In this document: in pieces, positions 28,147 through 36,857 of the stretch | How the letters are laid out: the number at the start of each line of letters is the position of its first letter | How positions within the stretch are numbered: the stretch's first letter is position 1 | Assembly: GCA_017434555.1 (NCBI GenBank) | Contig: JAFRFB010000041.1 | Span: 1-39,859 of the forward strand | DNA: 39,859 nt | Direction: 5' to 3' | DNA from: Methanobrevibacter sp. | Lineage (GTDB): Archaea; Methanobacteriota; Methanobacteria; Methanobacteriales; Methanobacteriaceae | Notes under the pieces: model-generated | Database searches by the model: none | What the model was told of the DNA's origin: nothing | Seen by the model: only the letters and a program-made list of their open reading frames with translations | Translations under genes and position numbers: made by a program

Positions 28147-28836
28147 TTGAAAACTATTGAAGAACCAGTAGTCATTCGTGAAGGAGATTCATTTAAAGTT
28201 GTTTTATCAAAATATGGAGCTTTAGCTTTAGATAAACAAGAAAATTTATCAGAATTAATTGGTGATGCTGAAGGCGATTTGGACTTGGAAAATGGTATTT
28301 TAAGCTTTGGAGATACCAAATTACCTGTGCAGGTCTTAGGATTTTACCGTGATGATTTAAAACAATGGTCATGGGCCTGGGATAGTGAAGAGATTTTTGG
28401 TGCTGATTTGATTAAGGCGGCTGCTGAAATGAAACAGGCAGGTATTGATGCGGGCATTCCTGAATTTTCTTCTCCTATTATTCAGTGTGATTTCAACGCA
28501 TGCCATACATTGGCTATGGCAACTGTCGGAATCCTTGATTTTGATGCATATTATGCTGTTAATGAAGAAGGTATAGATATTTTCGTAGCTATTGAAGGAG
28601 GTAATATTCCTGAAATAAATAGTGTGGAGAAATTTAAAGATACTTTCTATACATTTCAAAAGAATTTTAAAGTGGATGGAAGAACAGCATTCGACGCTTA
28701 TACAAAGCTTAAAGGATACCGTATTAAACATCACGATGATTTTGATGTTGCATATCTTGGTGAAAGTCGTTTAATTGTTGGATTTACTGAAAGAAGAAAT
28801 GTAAAAACTATTCAACTGTTACTTGAAGAAGAGTGA
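28147..28836 (+). CDS. Small soluble protein, DUF6882-like
   Basis: 229 residues, soluble, acidic. The segment QVLGFYRDDLKQWSWAWDSEE with closely spaced Trp residues, followed by a helix (LIKAAAEMKQAGIDAG) and CHTLAMATVGILDFDAYY, resembles the DUF6882 family; this is from memory and should be tested. The start is a TTG at 28147 preceded by AGGTGATT, which overlaps the dapL stop codon. It is followed by two further small genes with 4-base gap and 11-base overlap, forming a compact cassette. Function unknown. Confidence 0.65.
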   Translation: MKTIEEPVVIREGDSFKVVLSKYGALALDKQENLSELIGDAEGDLDLENGILSFGDTKLPVQVLGFYRDDLKQWSWAWDSEEIFGADLIKAAAEMKQAGIDAGIPEFSSPIIQCDFNACHTLAMATVGILDFDAYYAVNEEGIDIFVAIEGGNIPEINSVEKFKDTFYTFQKNFKVDGRTAFDAYTKLKGYRIKHHDDFDVAYLGESRLIVGFTERRNVKTIQLLLEEE

Positions 28837-28840
28837 TAAT

Positions 28841-29437
28841 ATGAATCAGGATTTGGTTGATGAAATAGATGATTTAATCGATTTATTAACTAAATCTGGT
28901 TTTTTCTCAACAGAAGAAATTATCGAAATTCTAGAAGATCAATTCATTGATTATGACATTGATTTTAATGATTATTCCATTCCTTCAAATGATTTTAACA
29001 ATAAAAATTTCTCTTCTTTAGAGCAAACCTTTAAAAAATTAGCTGAAAAATCAATAATTGCTGTTCACAACTGTGGATATGACTTTAAAGAGGGTGTAAA
29101 TGACATATATGAGTTGTATGTTCATTTAGTTAATAATGAATATTCCTGTGATGGCTTTTGTTTTTACACTTTTGAAGATGTTGAAGAGGCTATTGAGGAA
29201 AATATTTTAAAATTAACCTTTGGAGACTTTGAAAGAAATGAAGAAAAGTCTTTAGAGATTGGTGAATTGGTTTATCAGCAATTAACTGATACAGGTTTTG
29301 AAGTTGAATGGGATAAAACTGTAAACTCACCAGTTGAAATTATTAATTTCATTTGGGATAAAAAGTATTGTGAAGATAAGGATTATGAAATTGAAGGAGC
29401 TTATGATTTATTTACAGGTGTTATAAATGAGAAATGA
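28841..29437 (+). CDS. Small soluble protein, DUF6891-like
   Basis: 198 residues from ATG 28841; the GTGATAAT just before it is the ribosome binding site, so the upstream ATG at 28823 is less likely. A central block, LEQTFKKLAEKSIIAVHNCGYDFKEG, with GFCFYTFEDVEEAI and LKLTFGDFE further on, resembles DUF6891, a family I recall as often accompanying DUF6882. C-terminal GFEVEWDKTVNSPVEI looks like a beta-strand end. It overlaps the following gene by 11 bases. Function unknown. Confidence 0.65.
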   Translation: MNQDLVDEIDDLIDLLTKSGFFSTEEIIEILEDQFIDYDIDFNDYSIPSNDFNNKNFSSLEQTFKKLAEKSIIAVHNCGYDFKEGVNDIYELYVHLVNNEYSCDGFCFYTFEDVEEAIEENILKLTFGDFERNEEKSLEIGELVYQQLTDTGFEVEWDKTVNSPVEIINFIWDKKYCEDKDYEIEGAYDLFTGVINEK

Positions 29438-30011
29438 TTCTTTAAAGTTAATTGAAGATGTTATTGGTAATTTTGCTAAATTAGCTTCTGTTGAAATTTC
29501 AGGAGATTCCATTTATTTGGAATTCATTGATGTTGAGCTTGGCAATCCAAAAAATGATGAGGACTTGTCATTGTCAATGAGATTTGCCAAAAATTCTTTT
29601 TTCACGGTTTTCTATGATAATATCTGGGATATAGATTTTGTTTCCAATTTCAATTATAAAAATCATTTTTTACAGGAAGACCTTTTGCTTGATGTCGGCA
29701 GAATCAGATTCCTTGATTTCGAATATTTGAATACCTTCTTCTATAATTATCAAAAACAGAAGGATTTTTCTTTAGAACCTGAATATGATGTTCACAATAT
29801 TCGTGCGGATTTCTTCTGTTTAATAGAGTTTGGAAACATTGCCATTGTTGCTGGAGGAAATGAAATGGACTTTTTTACTCCTACATCAAGGCTTGATGAC
29901 AATATTTTAAAGGAATTATCTAATCAGTGGATGCTGTATTTCCTTACATATCATCAAAAAAGAAACATTATAAAAGATCCTATGTGTGAAAAGCATCCTT
30001 TCAATAGATAA
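29427..30011 (+). CDS. Small soluble protein of unknown family
   Basis: 194 residues, not recognised. It is rich in Phe, Tyr, Asp and Asn, with an N-terminal helix (SLKLIEDVIGNFAKLA), a probable beta-sheet core (SIYLEFIDVEL, FLDFEYLNTFFYNY, ADFFCLIEFGNIAIVAGG) and no membrane segment. AGGTG inside the end of the previous gene serves as ribosome binding site, so translation is coupled. The composition is like that of immunity-type or SUKH-like proteins, but no motif supports that. A T tract (30017-30025) ends the unit. Confidence 0.65.
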   Translation: MRNDSLKLIEDVIGNFAKLASVEISGDSIYLEFIDVELGNPKNDEDLSLSMRFAKNSFFTVFYDNIWDIDFVSNFNYKNHFLQEDLLLDVGRIRFLDFEYLNTFFYNYQKQKDFSLEPEYDVHNIRADFFCLIEFGNIAIVAGGNEMDFFTPTSRLDDNILKELSNQWMLYFLTYHQKRNIIKDPMCEKHPFNR

Positions 30012-30035: not shown

Positions 30036-30060
30036 AATAACTATCATAAAGATAGTTATT
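30036..30060. terminator. Bidirectional hairpin between convergent units
   Basis: AATAACTATC (30036-30045) and GATAGTTATT (30051-30060) form a perfect 10-bp stem with a 5-base loop. T tracts lie on both sides for their respective strands. The stop codon of the minus-strand gene (30056-30058) is within the stem. Confidence 0.75.
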
Positions 30061-30682
30061 TTTGGTTAAAAGCGCCTGTAATGAAGTTGAACACGTCTCT
30101 GACTCCGGAGATGAATCCGTTGTATTGGTTATTGTGAATATTAGACATGTCATCTTCAATACGGTCATCAACTTCTTTTAAAAATGTCGTATTGTTATAG
30201 TCATGACTGGTAAAGTAATGAACCTGTATGGCATAATTTGTGTCTTCTTTTTGGAAAACGTAATTTACTCCAACATGACTCCATGTAACGTTATTGTCTC
30301 TGGATGGATTCGTGAAATATTCCTTGGATACAGGAACACCACTCATAGTTTTATTTTCCATTCTCAATACTTTAAAACCACCATCTTCCATTGATGCAAA
30401 CTTTCCATCCGAAACTGATGTAATGTGGTCTTCAGGCCAGTCATCCCAATGGTCAATATAAACATATTCATTTGTAATTGCATGAGGAGTTTTTGACTGA
30501 TTGGTTAAGTTTAATTCCTCTGTTGTATTCCATGCTTGAGGAACAACGGTAACACTGTGTCCAAAATCTATGGTTCTATCTGTCTGAACACTTAAAAAAC
30601 TATTTATTCCATTGATATTTGCTGCAATGAATAAAATTAAAAGGATTAATAATAGACTTCGAAGCTTGTCCTGTCTTCTCAT
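30056..30682 (-). CDS. Membrane-anchored extracytoplasmic protein in the glycosyltransferase operon
   Basis: 208 residues, no recognised family. Basic N-terminus (MRRQDKLR), one membrane segment or signal anchor (about residues 9-28), then a soluble domain of about 175 residues with several N-x-S/T sequons (NTT, NLT, NKT, NVT, NNTT), in keeping with an exported protein. AAAGGAGGT inside the end of the glycosyltransferase gene is its ribosome binding site, and it starts on the base after that gene ends. Tight coupling suggests a partner of the glycosyltransferase, perhaps in export or anchoring of its product (inference). Confidence 0.7.
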   Translation of the reverse strand: MRRQDKLRSLLLILLILFIAANINGINSFLSVQTDRTIDFGHSVTVVPQAWNTTEELNLTNQSKTPHAITNEYVYIDHWDDWPEDHITSVSDGKFASMEDGGFKVLRMENKTMSGVPVSKEYFTNPSRDNNVTWSHVGVNYVFQKEDTNYAIQVHYFTSHDYNNTTFLKEVDDRIEDDMSNIHNNQYNGFISGVRDVFNFITGAFNQK

Positions 30683-32440
30683 TTATTCATGACCTCCTTT
30701 ATGCTCAGTTTTAGCCCATTTACGTTCTTTTCTTGTCATCATAGTTTTCATTGTCATAAAAAACAATGGAATTAAATGGAAACAATAAATGTAGTATTTG
30801 ATAAGATCTTTAATAAAGTCTACGATTCCAGGCTTATCTCTGGATAATGCAAGCATAATTCCAGGGAAAAATGATATCGCAGATAATATACCTACAATAA
30901 ATGGTGCTTCCATTCTTATGATTGTTACGTTATGGAAGAGAAGCCAGGAAATGGCATTTATTATTGTTATAATAAAACCAAAGAATATGAGTAAATTAAA
31001 GCTGTAAAAGGAAATGTGTTCAATAATTCCGAATTTTTTAGGTATTGAAACCTTTGATTTTAGAATTTGCGGCAAATAAATAAAAAGGGTTTCAAAGTTA
31101 CCGATAGCCCATCTTACTCTTTGTCTGAAAAATGGTTTCCATTCATTCAATGCTTCCTGATAAACTGCAGCTTCACCGCAATAGCGTATTTTTCCACCTA
31201 AAAGCATTATTTTAACTGCTAAATTCAAATCTTCTGTAACAGCAAAACCGTCCCATTTTCCACAATCAATAATGGACTGTTTTTTAACGAATTGTCCGTT
31301 TCCACCTAAAAATCCGGTGTTTCCTAGGTTATCTTTTGCCCTTAGAGTATTTCCAAAACTTGCAAATTCAACATGCTGCATACGAGACAAATAGCTTTCA
31401 TCTCGGTTATACATTTTAACTCTTGACTGAACACCGTCGATTTCGGGATCTACTACATATGCGACAACTTTAGTTAGGTAATCCTTACAGATTTTAGTGT
31501 CTGCATCAAAAACTCCAATTATTTCTCCTCGAGATAAAGTTAATGCATCATTTAAAACAAATCCTTTTCCTTTTCCGGATACTGGAGGTTTTCTTGTTAC
31601 AATTTTTAGTTGAGGCAATTCATCTTTGATTTCATGTAATATTTCACCTGTTCTGTCTGTTGAACCGTCATTAATGACAATCACTTCAAAATAAGGTTCG
31701 CCGTCAACATGATAATCACTTTCACAAACACTTCTAACGGTCATTGCAATCGTGGCTTCCTCATTATGTGCAGGTATAAAAACACTTACAAATGGCTTTT
31801 CATAATCATAACTAACTGGGTCAGGCTTTTTAATACTGGCTATACCATTAATAAGCATTGCTATCGTTGGTATGAGTAAAACCCATTGAAGCCATGTCGC
31901 ATTTCTTGATAAAATTGCCATTATAATTAATGCTACACATAAAATTAAAAGAAAACTTGAATCTGATTTTTCAATCAATAATTCTTCATTTTTTTCATCA
32001 ATTTTATTCTTTGCTTCAGCAATTTGTGCATTGTTTAGTTCATGCTTTCTTATAGCTACTGCCATTGTACGCTGCAATTCGTCTTTTTCAATTTCTTTAA
32101 ATATATAACCGTAAGGTGTAATCATCAGTACTTCATCAATGACTTCATCAAAACGATTTCCGACTATTACAACATTAGGAATGTTAAATCTTTCTAAATC
32201 CTTGGTTAATTTGATTAAGTCTATATCTTCGATTTCTGAATCGAGTAAAACAAGGTTTGGGGATAATTTTATAATTCTACTTTTAATCCGATCTTTGGTA
32301 TGAGCGGAACCAATAAAATTATAATCATAATCCTCAATATATTCCCTTAACTGGTTTATTAAAGCATCGTCCGAACTGATAACAAATATGTCCGGATGAG
32401 ACTGGGCAAGTGAACTAGTTTCTATTTCATGTGGGCTCAT
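30683..32440 (-). CDS. Receiver-domain / membrane glycosyltransferase 2 fusion
   Basis: 585 residues in three parts. Residues 17-133 are a response-regulator receiver-like domain: Asp24-Asp25, Asp67 as likely phosphoacceptor and Lys115 are present, but the usual Thr/Ser of strand 4 is Val. Two membrane segments (about 161-201) follow. Residues 216-450 are a GT2 catalytic domain with VINDGSTD, FDADT (Asp312, Asp314), TED (402-404) and QRVRW (440-444), the set seen in processive synthases such as BcsA, PgaC and hyaluronan synthase. Further membrane segments lie at about 476-564. It probably polymerises and secretes a polysaccharide under phosphorelay control. Product unknown. Confidence 0.85.
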   Translation of the reverse strand: MSPHEIETSSLAQSHPDIFVISSDDALINQLREYIEDYDYNFIGSAHTKDRIKSRIIKLSPNLVLLDSEIEDIDLIKLTKDLERFNIPNVVIVGNRFDEVIDEVLMITPYGYIFKEIEKDELQRTMAVAIRKHELNNAQIAEAKNKIDEKNEELLIEKSDSSFLLILCVALIIMAILSRNATWLQWVLLIPTIAMLINGIASIKKPDPVSYDYEKPFVSVFIPAHNEEATIAMTVRSVCESDYHVDGEPYFEVIVINDGSTDRTGEILHEIKDELPQLKIVTRKPPVSGKGKGFVLNDALTLSRGEIIGVFDADTKICKDYLTKVVAYVVDPEIDGVQSRVKMYNRDESYLSRMQHVEFASFGNTLRAKDNLGNTGFLGGNGQFVKKQSIIDCGKWDGFAVTEDLNLAVKIMLLGGKIRYCGEAAVYQEALNEWKPFFRQRVRWAIGNFETLFIYLPQILKSKVSIPKKFGIIEHISFYSFNLLIFFGFIITIINAISWLLFHNVTIIRMEAPFIVGILSAISFFPGIMLALSRDKPGIVDFIKDLIKYYIYCFHLIPLFFMTMKTMMTRKERKWAKTEHKGGHE

Positions 32441-32448
32441 TTTATCTT

Positions 32449-32859
32449 TTATTCACTAAATCCTTGTGCATCGTTTATTTTTTTTGCTTCCATTTGGGCT
32501 CGTTTTATTGTTATTTTTAGAGTTTTGTCAAGTTTATTGATATCGTATGGTTTTGAAATAAATCCGTATGATCCTTTTACATTGGATTTTTCAAAAGTGT
32601 CGGTGTCTGTGTTTGCAGTTAAATAAACAATAGGAATTCTTAATTCTGAAATTACTTCAGCTGCTTCTATTCCTTCCATGTCTCCTTTTAATTTAATATC
32701 CATTAATACGACGTCTGGAATAGTTTCAGCAGCAGTGTCAATTGCATCTTGACCAGTATCAACTGTATCTATGATTTGATAGCCTAGTTCTTCTAAACTA
32801 TATTTCAAGTCAAGTGCTGTTATTGCTTCATCTTCGACTATTAATATACGTTCGTTCAT
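32449..32859 (-). CDS. Stand-alone receiver-domain response regulator
   Basis: 136 residues, a receiver domain without output domain. Glu9-Asp10-Glu11 acidic pocket, Asp54 phosphoacceptor (VLMDIKL), Thr81 (YLTANTD) and Lys103 (ISKPYD) are all present. An AAAGGGAT ribosome binding site precedes ATG 32859, which is preferred over ATG 32874. It lies between two histidine kinases and a receiver-containing glycosyltransferase, so it is the likely direct kinase substrate or phosphotransfer shuttle. The C-terminal helix is extended by about 15 residues (IKRAQMEAKKINDAQG) and may bind a partner. Confidence 0.9.
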   Translation of the reverse strand: MNERILIVEDEAITALDLKYSLEELGYQIIDTVDTGQDAIDTAAETIPDVVLMDIKLKGDMEGIEAAEVISELRIPIVYLTANTDTDTFEKSNVKGSYGFISKPYDINKLDKTLKITIKRAQMEAKKINDAQGFSE

Positions 32860-32931
32860 ATTATCCCTTTCCATTTTTTTATGTAATATTGTAATTTATG
32901 TAATTAATATTATTTTAACTTAATTGTTCAA

Positions 32932-34809
32932 CTACTTTGAAATTGTATGTTCCATTGTTAATGGGAACAGTAATCTAAATCCAGTACCATTTTCCACATC
33001 TAAATATGAAATATCTCCGTCTAATTGTTTAGTTAAGTTTTTAATAATCTCACAACCAAGACTGTGCTTCATATTCTTTTTGGTTTTATCAATACCGACT
33101 CCATTGTCTTTAATTATTAATTCACCAGTATTGTCATCGATTTTTCTGAAAGATTTAGTTATTGTTTTGTCCGGCCAATCCTGTGGGAATGCATGTTTAA
33201 TGGAATTCATGGTTAGTTCATCAACAACTAAAAGCAATGGGGTTATTATCTCAATGGATAATGTAATGTCGTCTTCCACACTTGATTTAAATGTAATTCC
33301 ATCTCTCAATCCAATTAAATTTTCAAGTTTGGAATCCTGATCAATGATATATTCCTTAAGATTGATGTTTTTAAAGTCACTTGTATTATATGTTTTTTCA
33401 TGCAAAAGAGCAAGTGAGGACAATCTGGATTGCATATGATCAATGATTAAATTCGGTTGATTTTTATATGCTCTTTTTTCAAGGTTCAGGAAACTGTTTA
33501 AAATCTGCAGGTTGTTTTTAACCCTATGGTGAACTTCTTTAATCAATACTTTTTGATGCTCGTTTGCATCCTGCAATTCCTGTTGTTTTATGTAGTCTTC
33601 AGTAATATCTGTTAAAAATCCTATACTGTGTTCCTCTTGACCAAATTCAAATATTTCAATATGTATTTCACATATTTTTTGATTATTTGGATCTCCTTTA
33701 ACATTATATACAAATGTTTCATCAAGTTCATTTATTTCTCTTCTCAATATTTTTCTAAATGATTCCACAGTTTTTTCATTATCTATATTTTCTATAATTA
33801 CTCTATGATTGGAGTAAGTTGCTTTATCCTCTTCCACAATATCGTAAAAGCTTTCACTGTATTCATACTGCTTTTCGTTTAAAGGGTCTATTAACAGTGC
33901 CAGTTTTTTGGAGTTTTTAAATCCGTTAAGTAAAAAGTCAACAGGTCTTGTTATATTTTTATCTGAGCTTTTTGTAATGTCTTTGATTAAAGCATATCTG
34001 CTTATTAATCCTCCATTTTCATCAAATTTTGAATAAAAATTAAAATCCAAAAATTTTATAATACCATCGGGTGTTTTAATCCTAACAACACTTTCATAGT
34101 TGGCTATTCCACTATCCAGAGTATTCTGAATCTTTTCAATTAGTGGGCGGTCTTCAGGAATTGCCAATTCAAAGACAATATTATAGTATTCGTCGTTTTC
34201 TTCTCTTGAACGATTAATGATGTTGTAGACTCCCTGAGTCCATGAATATTTGTCGTTGATTTTATAGTAACTTCCGGTCTGTGAGAAATATTCAATCAAT
34301 GAGGATTTATTTTCATCATAAATTTCATATTTTTCCAAGTCTTCATTTTTTCCTTCTATTGTGTATTTCATTTCTGCTATTAAGATGATATTTTCCATAT
34401 CATAGATTACTTTAACGTTTGAGAGTCTTGCAAGTTTATCGTTCTGATAATATAGGAAACGTAGTTTTTTAGTTTCATGGGTTAGATATACCTCCTGCAA
34501 GATATCCTGTAAGATTTCACTGTATTCAGGTGAACATTCACTCAATAATCTTCCTTCAACATCATCGGGTTTTATATTTCCACGTTCCAATGCACTTTTT
34601 CCTAACATTTGGATTATAAAGTCTGCACCGCCGTTATATGGTATGAAAACATTCATATCACAAGGTAGACTATTTATTACTCTTTTAAATGGGACTGACT
34701 GTGTTTTAAATATTGGTTCAACATAATGGAATAATTGCTTTTCTGTAATTTCTCTAATCATAATTTCTGTAGTGTCTTCTAGTTTGATGTATCTTTTTTG
34801 AATTTGCAT
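32932..34809 (-). CDS. Soluble PAS-type sensor histidine kinase (HisKA_2)
   Basis: 625 residues with no membrane segment, so a cytoplasmic sensor. Residues about 20-150 form an N-terminal PAS-like domain, about 165-280 a PAS/PAC domain (SQTGSYYKINDKYSW, ISRYALIKDIT) and about 285-405 a third PAS-like unit. The dimerisation helix has KEVHHRVKNNLQILNSFLNLE (phosphoacceptor His427 or His428), typical of HisKA_2. The ATPase part shows the N box (ELTMNSIKHAF, Asn535), KDNGVG and NGTGFRLLF. It overlaps the upstream paralogue by one base and has a GGAGGTGG ribosome binding site within it. Confidence 0.9.
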   Translation of the reverse strand: MQIQKRYIKLEDTTEIMIREITEKQLFHYVEPIFKTQSVPFKRVINSLPCDMNVFIPYNGGADFIIQMLGKSALERGNIKPDDVEGRLLSECSPEYSEILQDILQEVYLTHETKKLRFLYYQNDKLARLSNVKVIYDMENIILIAEMKYTIEGKNEDLEKYEIYDENKSSLIEYFSQTGSYYKINDKYSWTQGVYNIINRSREENDEYYNIVFELAIPEDRPLIEKIQNTLDSGIANYESVVRIKTPDGIIKFLDFNFYSKFDENGGLISRYALIKDITKSSDKNITRPVDFLLNGFKNSKKLALLIDPLNEKQYEYSESFYDIVEEDKATYSNHRVIIENIDNEKTVESFRKILRREINELDETFVYNVKGDPNNQKICEIHIEIFEFGQEEHSIGFLTDITEDYIKQQELQDANEHQKVLIKEVHHRVKNNLQILNSFLNLEKRAYKNQPNLIIDHMQSRLSSLALLHEKTYNTSDFKNINLKEYIIDQDSKLENLIGLRDGITFKSSVEDDITLSIEIITPLLLVVDELTMNSIKHAFPQDWPDKTITKSFRKIDDNTGELIIKDNGVGIDKTKKNMKHSLGCEIIKNLTKQLDGDISYLDVENGTGFRLLFPLTMEHTISK

Positions 34810-36701
34810 TATGCCACCTCCTCATTTTCATCATCGGATAATTCTTCAAATTTTATTGGAAATATTATTCTAAATCCTGTACCGACATCACTGTCTATAA
34901 TCTCTATAGTCCCATCAATCTGTTTAGTTAGGCTGTTTACAATTTCCCAGCCTAAGTTATGATTAATGAGCTGGTCTGGACTTTCAAGACCAACACCATT
35001 ATCCTTTAAGATAAATTCACATGTATTTTCATCAATGAATTTAATTTCTTTATGGATTGTTTTATTTTCCATATCCTGGTCTGGAAATGCATGCTTTATT
35101 GAATTCATAGTCAATTCATCAACAATCAGTAATAATGGCGTTATCGTTTCGATTGATAAGTGGATGTTTTCATCGATTTCTGATTCAAAGTTAATATTTT
35201 TGGCACTGAACAATCCCTGCAGGGTGTCATCCTGATCTTCTAGATAATCCTTTAAATTAATGTTTAAAAAGTCACTTGTATTGTATGTCTTTTCATGTAA
35301 AAGGGCAAGTGAAGAAAGACGTGCCTGCATATTATCTAAAATCTGATTTGGATTATTCCTATATGCACGACGTTCCAGGTTTAGAAAACTGTTCAATACC
35401 TGCAGGTTGTTTTTAACCCTATGGTGAACCTCTTTAATTAAAATGTTTTTATTGGCATTGGATTTGATTAACTCCTGCTGTTTTTTCTTTATATGCGTAA
35501 TGTCAGTTAAAAATCCTATGCTGTGTTCATTATTTCCATACTGGAATCTTTCAATAAACAGTTCACATATTTTCAAGTTGTTTTCATCACCGTTGACCTT
35601 ATATGTCAATATTTCATTGACTTCGTTTATTTCTCCATCGATTAATTTCACGAGATTTTCTCTAACATCCTCTTCCACGATGTTGTCAAGCACATCCCTT
35701 GAATGAATATAATCTTCAGAAGGAATTTCAATCATCTTATAGAATCCTTTACTGAACTCGTATCTTCGGCTTAACGGTTCTATAAGAAGGGAAAGTTTTG
35801 AATTATGGTTAAAACCGTCCAGCATAAAGTCTACAGGTCTGGTCATATGCTTATGTGAATCAAGGCTCACATCTTTAAATAATCCGTAATGACTTATTTC
35901 ATCTCCGTTTTCATCAAATTTAGAGTATAAATAGGTATCTATATATTTAAGATGGCCGTCACGGGTTTTGATTCTGATAATATTTTCATATGTGTCCGTT
36001 TCGGGACTCATTGTATTGAGCAGTTCATGAACCAATGGCTTGTCCTCAGGAATTACCAAATCAAAGATAATATTGTAATATGCATCATCAGATTCCTTGC
36101 TCCTGTTTATGATATTGTATATTCCAGGAGTCCAGGTATATTCGTTTCTTGTTTTATAATAACTTCCTGTCTGTGAGAAATATTCGATTAAAGTGGATTT
36201 ATTCGCATCATCTTCAAGTTTCTTTTCTTCTAAGCTTCTTTCATTTGAAAGTTCGTCAGTATAATCAGAAATAACAAAGAGATTGCCTGCCTCATAAATA
36301 ATGTGGATATTTGTTATGCTTTTAATTCTATTGCTGATATAGTAATAGATTCTCATGGATTTTGTTTCTTTTGTTTTAAACACTTCTTTAAATGGCTCTT
36401 TAAAAATCTCATAGAAAATTGGTGAACATTCACTGAATTTACGGCCTTCAACATCTTCTAATTTGATATTTCCTCTCTGTAAAATATTCCAGCCTAAACG
36501 ATTGATAACGAAGTCTTCGCCATCCTCAATGGGTATAATCATGTTAACATCTGACTGAACATATTTGATAATATTGCAGAAAGGAATTTTCATTGGTTTT
36601 TGATACTGAGGAGCCTGTTCAAACAATTCAACATTGTTTATGTTGTATACTCGAACTTCCTCAATTTTTTCCAATTCTCGGTATTGTCTTTCAATATGCA
36701 T
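34809..36701 (-). CDS. Soluble PAS-type sensor histidine kinase (HisKA_2), paralogue
   Basis: 630 residues and collinear with the downstream kinase throughout, clearly a tandem duplication. Landmarks are ECSP near residue 91, SQTGSYYK near 176, NEHSIGFLTDIT near 391, KEVHHRVKNNLQVLNSFLNLE with His426/427, ELTMNSIKHAF, LKDNGVGLES and VGTGFRIIF. All catalytic boxes are intact in both copies, so both may be active, possibly as a heterodimer or with different inputs. First gene of the minus-strand operon; a GGGT site and TATA-like run (about 36722-36740) lie upstream. It is divergent from purA. Confidence 0.9.
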   Translation of the reverse strand: MHIERQYRELEKIEEVRVYNINNVELFEQAPQYQKPMKIPFCNIIKYVQSDVNMIIPIEDGEDFVINRLGWNILQRGNIKLEDVEGRKFSECSPIFYEIFKEPFKEVFKTKETKSMRIYYYISNRIKSITNIHIIYEAGNLFVISDYTDELSNERSLEEKKLEDDANKSTLIEYFSQTGSYYKTRNEYTWTPGIYNIINRSKESDDAYYNIIFDLVIPEDKPLVHELLNTMSPETDTYENIIRIKTRDGHLKYIDTYLYSKFDENGDEISHYGLFKDVSLDSHKHMTRPVDFMLDGFNHNSKLSLLIEPLSRRYEFSKGFYKMIEIPSEDYIHSRDVLDNIVEEDVRENLVKLIDGEINEVNEILTYKVNGDENNLKICELFIERFQYGNNEHSIGFLTDITHIKKKQQELIKSNANKNILIKEVHHRVKNNLQVLNSFLNLERRAYRNNPNQILDNMQARLSSLALLHEKTYNTSDFLNINLKDYLEDQDDTLQGLFSAKNINFESEIDENIHLSIETITPLLLIVDELTMNSIKHAFPDQDMENKTIHKEIKFIDENTCEFILKDNGVGLESPDQLINHNLGWEIVNSLTKQIDGTIEIIDSDVGTGFRIIFPIKFEELSDDENEEVA

Positions 36702-36857
36702 ATTTATTACCCGTTTTTAATTTAAGTTATATTATATTTATGTCTCATTATATTATTTAAAAATTTGTTGGAAAAGTTTTTTAATAATTAATTATATAAT
36801 ATAATTGTTATGGAAATTTTTTATTTTCACATATTAATTATTTTAGGGAGTTATTAA

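Follow-up and report, generated by a model that had tools for sequence, protein, structure and literature searches.

In the window, that is the whole 39,859-nucleotide stretch of Methanobrevibacter sp. DNA analysed here, we found a five-gene operon which, judged from its genes, probably (at roughly 60%) forms a self-contained switch that controls a membrane polysaccharide synthase post-translationally. The five open reading frames (ORF) were located on the minus strand at 30056-36701, the same coordinates as in the earlier sequence-only reading, and the tight spacing described there was also observed. The two histidine kinase genes (HK1 and HK2) overlap by 1 base, followed by gaps of 57 bases between HK2 and the free receiver gene (RR), 8 bases between RR and the glycosyltransferase gene (GT2), and 0 bases between GT2 and the gene of an anchored protein (Table 1). 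The order HK1-HK2-RR-GT2-anchored protein, adjoining purA, was kept in about 20 Methanobrevibacter-type genomes, and this recurrence indicated that the array is not due to chance. The named relatives nearest to the window were Methanobrevibacter, M. millerae among them. We infer promoter activity for the divergent intergenic stretch that separates HK1 from purA. Just downstream of the operon and convergent to it, a DUF6882 gene, a DUF6891 gene and an unnamed gene of 194 aa were located at 28147-30011, and most relatives within the genus likewise have the latter two next to the operon. Through literature searches, we found no study of this HK1-HK2-RR-GT2-anchored protein operon.

Table 1. Predicted features of the operon in the window.
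Feature	Position	Strand	Length (aa)	Evidence
HK1, soluble PAS/HisKA_2/HATPase_c histidine kinase	34809..36701	-	630	Pfam matches, motifs, without TM segment
HK2, tandem paralogue of HK1	32932..34809	-	625	Pfam matches, identity with HK1, motifs
RR, free canonical receiver, CheY-like, PhyR-receiver-like	32449..32874	-	141	Response_reg 73.5 bits (cut-off 30.2)
Pseudo-receiver-GT2: pseudo-receiver (16-133), helical linker (134-160), processive-type GT2 synthase (161-585)	30683..32440	-	585	Pfam, residue table
Anchored accessory protein	30056..30682	-	208	One N-terminal TM helix near residues 5-32
Probable operon promoter, divergent intergenic HK1/purA	36702..36857	-		AT-rich, partly conserved blocks; 7 upstream regions aligned

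The GT2 synthase had been read as carrying an N-terminal receiver-like domain, and both parts were found on one ORF: a weak Response_reg match (31.7 bits, cut-off 30.2) lies N-terminal to the PF13641 domain (Glyco_tranf_2_3, 96.6 bits), which is the layout of a REC-GT2 protein. The motifs NDGS, DAD, TED and QRVRW were present, hydrophobic segments flank the catalytic domain on both sides, and the catalytic residues were invariant among 23 sequences. This matches the D, DxD, TED and QxxRW motifs with flanking membrane helices of processive synthases of the PgaC/BcsA/HAS type. The protein is not a PgaC/IcaA equivalog (TIGR03937, 130.8 bits against a cut-off of 422.3), and its matches to named synthases were all far under the curated cut-offs. 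Such low scores would fit a non-processive GT2 that makes a short glycan or a glycolipid, so that the switch, possibly by the same mechanism, would govern wall or lipid decoration instead of a biofilm polymer; considering the invariance of NDGS, DAD, TED and QxxRW and the PgaC-like membrane segments at both termini, we regard this as rather unlikely.

GT2 was found in 48/139 family genomes, distributed in 9/17 genera, and a wider search extended its range to three families within the order. Two genomes contained very long versions (L058:5007-9197 and L059:2147-6622), one of 1396 aa with about 850 residues ahead of the pseudo-receiver and one of 1491 aa with a receiver at its start, and a Pfam search of the added stretch revealed no family. 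The operon of another genome (G037, L061:7582-15352) is decaying, with a transposase gene interrupting one kinase gene and a stop interrupting GT2.

The anchored protein, previously described as of exported type, does possess a single N-terminal membrane helix, and the domain after this helix is presumably extracellular. No relative was found in Pfam or NCBIfam, and nothing was found in PDB with the family profile. A suspected resemblance to PsbP-like proteins gained no support from profile comparison with the one PsbP_2 protein of the genome (hhalign probability 0.3%). The family contained 22 invariant residues in 20 sequences and was present in 40/139 family genomes; only G042 and G027 had it without a detected GT2 gene, and in G042 the locus by purA (L089:7259-8009) has decayed to the anchored gene plus a GT2 remnant of 44 codons. 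AlphaFold2 models of the anchored protein and of pseudo-receiver-GT2 each had a mean pLDDT of 44 (6-row alignments), and the beta-alpha order of the receiver was seen in the latter with low confidence.

Both kinases are soluble PAS/HisKA_2 proteins, as originally proposed. HisKA_2 and HATPase_c were above the Pfam cut-offs in HK1 (65.6 and 27.6 bits) and in HK2 (60.8 and 33.7 bits); PAS_3 was above the cut-off in HK1 (29.6 bits) and slightly under it in HK2. Transmembrane prediction revealed no segment in either protein. The H-box, N-box and DNGVG motif are intact in both, which together with the two domains places them among HisKA_2 histidine kinases, with predicted phospho-His H427 and N-box N533 in HK1, and H428 and N535 in HK2. 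The two proteins share 53% identity, and HK1 had a dN/dS of about 0.06 in those comparisons with close relatives that gave a measurable dS. Kinase genes were absent beside the core in G060 and G073, and the sequence of G089 ends inside HK2 at a contig end. A HisKA_2 search of the window's genome (99.5% complete) found, besides HK1 and HK2, only one orphan kinase (L090:5663-7585, contig C82), which is close to HK2 and has no operon neighbours or nearby receiver.

The free receiver is receiver-only, in agreement with the first description of it, and its ORF contains no further domain. The key residues are E14/D15, D59, T86 and K108 (141-aa numbering), and comparison of orthologues suggested a protein of 136 aa that starts at 32859, downstream of a GGAAAGGGA-like site. 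The canonical set of Glu-Asp, Asp, Thr/Ser and Lys was kept in 35-36 of the 36 free receivers aligned. The top NCBIfam likeness was the PhyR receiver, far under the cut-off, and the sigma-like domain fused to the receiver in PhyR is missing.

In the window's genome, PF00072 had only two matches, the free receiver and the pseudo-receiver, a count that highly divergent receivers below the threshold could escape. Since the only receivers are those of the operon, there is no transcription-factor response regulator, and no GGDEF domain was found in this genome; in both points the proposal of a system without transcription factor and without cyclic-di-GMP domain held. Read from sequence, the other HATPase matches resemble the B subunit of topoisomerase VI, a topoisomerase of type II and a small protein of the RsbW kind. 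On contig C81 (L107:1-1947), an RsbU-like phosphatase adjoins the RsbW-like kinase, and this pair suggests a partner-switch system in this archaeon. GGDEF domains above the cut-off were found in 8/139 family genomes (including G076, G025 and G128), with assemblies taken as they stand, although according to Galperin et al. (2018, PMC5847659) archaea almost entirely lack GGDEF.

Receivers were wholly absent in 84/139 family genomes, and seven genomes (genera g4, g14-g17) contained 12-26 receivers. When these seven were set aside, the synthase was present in 42/48 receiver-bearing genomes, with two receivers or fewer in 34/42. In g1 (about 60 genomes, taken as 60), we counted genomes in the order both, GT2 only, other only and neither, and computed p-values ignoring shared ancestry and linkage: GT2 with receivers gave 33/0/2/25 (p 7e-15), GT2 with HK 30/3/2/25 (p 2e-11), and GT2 with the anchored protein 31/2/1/26 (p 1e-13). 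Several exceptions were contig ends or decay (G089, G042). The sequence-only reading had made its proposal depend on conservation of the gene set in related genomes, and the genes were both co-conserved and co-lost.

In other genera, REC-REC-GT2 was found as one protein, and some genomes of the same genus carry this form as a second copy. The fused REC1 domains are canonical save one partial row and one Thr change, and the fused REC2 domains are canonical in 10/12. In the receiver tree, the free receivers grouped with fused REC1 of the nearest relatives (support 96/95), and all pseudo-receivers were located on a single branch (support 97/96). AU tests allowed the grouping of the pseudo-receiver with REC2 (p-AU 0.415) and rejected that with REC1 (p-AU 0.038), while the free receiver with REC2 was marginal (p-AU 0.066); against some alternative receiver groupings the tests were marginal only (p 0.066 and 0.067). 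In the tree of the GT2 domain only, the split forms were all in one clade (SH-aLRT 93) nested among the fused forms. The simplest account would be one split of REC1 from REC2-GT2, followed by decay of REC2. The fused REC-REC-GT2 of relatives and the trees together argue strongly, if indirectly, for an action of the free receiver on the synthase, and the fused form is the best single piece of evidence that the two belong together.

Alternatively, the free receiver might shuttle phosphate or have a separate target, for example a transcription factor, and the pseudo-receiver might be a passive folding or oligomerisation module. The consulted passages of PMC5847659 describe stand-alone receivers as common in archaea and thought to work via protein-protein contacts, and of the two receivers the pseudo-receiver shows the faster evolution (dN/dS about 0.09, and about 0.02 for the free receiver). 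We consider this explanation improbable, because relatives hold both receivers and GT2 in one polypeptide, every g1 genome with the synthase has receivers while only 2 have receivers without it, and the pseudo-receiver domain, present in every split-form copy, is still under purifying selection.

Beside the second, fused REC-REC-GT2 copy of some relatives, we also found a 200-aa protein (L051:10081-10683, L062:7717-8337, L077:3396-4001 and L078:3154-3774) with a HisKA_2-like helix pair, an invariant His and an ATP-binding N-box that has degenerated. In appearance it is a phosphotransfer protein of the ChpT/Spo0B type, and this resemblance suggests a multistep relay at the fused copy.

By its residues, the receiver fused to GT2 in the operon is a pseudo-receiver, with the receiver fold signature and with phosphorylation residues missing. 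In the window, S22/S23 stand in place of the acidic pair and V93 in place of Thr, and D67 and K115 are retained. In the receiver-domain alignment of split forms, the acidic pair and Thr/Ser were lost in 31/31, Asp in 6/31 and Lys in 8, and beta5-alpha5 was the best-conserved segment. Canonical receivers require the acidic pair for Mg2+. As the free receiver is canonical and the fused receiver decayed, the phosphate most likely goes no further than the former. That HK1 and HK2 phosphorylate the fused receiver directly, with the free receiver as a phosphate sink or competitor, is very unlikely after the complete loss of the acidic pair and Thr/Ser, although D67 and K115 in the window and the Asp kept in 25/31 split forms could permit residual phosphorylation. 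The original idea of a phosphorelay directly on polymer synthesis is thus kept in part: direct control of the synthase is the best reading, considering the only receivers and the co-conservation, and the fused receiver as phosphate acceptor is not supported, given the loss of its active site.

We propose that the post-translational switch works as follows. HK1 and HK2, sensing through PAS domains and able perhaps to form homo- or heterodimers, would read an intracellular signal and phosphorylate D59 of the one free receiver, to which the orphan HisKA_2 kinase is probably a third input. The phosphorylated free receiver would dock on the dead pseudo-receiver at the N-terminus of GT2, and so might recreate the REC1-REC2 contact that would have been intramolecular in the ancestral REC-REC-GT2. 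The docking may be relayed via the helical linker and the first membrane helices, opening or closing the synthase, which by its motifs would make polymer and export it under this control. The anchored protein, co-occurring with GT2, may be an extracellular accessory subunit. The switch would involve no transcription step.

The operon may serve as a biofilm or surface switch, and the receiver repertoire suggests that the entire two-component signalling of the cell may be devoted to switching a surface sugar polymer. A wider claim, to which we give an even chance, is that gut methanogens of the genus lost all but one of their two-component systems, and that the one left is a switch free of transcription and c-di-GMP in which a phosphorylated receiver governs a polysaccharide synthase through pairing with the dead receiver that this enzyme carries, and which arose via fission of a tandem-receiver synthase. 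If true, exopolysaccharide would be controlled compactly by direct receiver-synthase contact instead of c-di-GMP, and this would be a rare archaeal stand-alone receiver to which genome data by themselves assign a target, as no other candidate is present in the genome. The gene split with decay of the fused receiver only would be a natural experiment on the receiver as signal source and as docking site, and the operon provides a testable handle on surface control in rumen methanogens.

The synthase resembles the poly-GlcNAc synthase PgaC/IcaA and the cellulose synthase BcsA in GT2 motifs, membrane layout and, as proposed here, post-translational control. For PgaCD and BcsA the controlling molecule is c-di-GMP, whereas the window's genome has no detected GGDEF protein, and the scores against these synthases were far under the curated cut-offs. 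The kinase core is nearest PhyK and the receiver nearest the PhyR receiver among PhyK/PhyR and other HWE/HisKA_2 pairs of alphaproteobacteria; however, the operon contains no sigma-like output domain, and its output would be an enzyme. The REC-GT2 fusion is already known: the consulted passages of Galperin et al. (2018, PMC5847659) list 13 REC-BcsA and REC-REC-BcsA proteins of Methanobacteriaceae (for example MTH_548), which likewise have a PF13641 GT2 with N-terminal receiver(s) and belong to the same archaeal group. Neither those passages nor our literature searches mentioned a split form whose fused receiver is dead, its two kinases, its anchored partner or the status as sole receiver system; in contrast to the listed fusions, REC1 is here encoded on its own, and the receiver still joined to GT2 has lost its active site. 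As in other atypical (pseudo-)receivers, the fold signature is kept and the metal and switch residues are lost, but here the domain is fused to a membrane synthase and adjoins a canonical receiver that was, on the simplest account, split off from it by gene fission.
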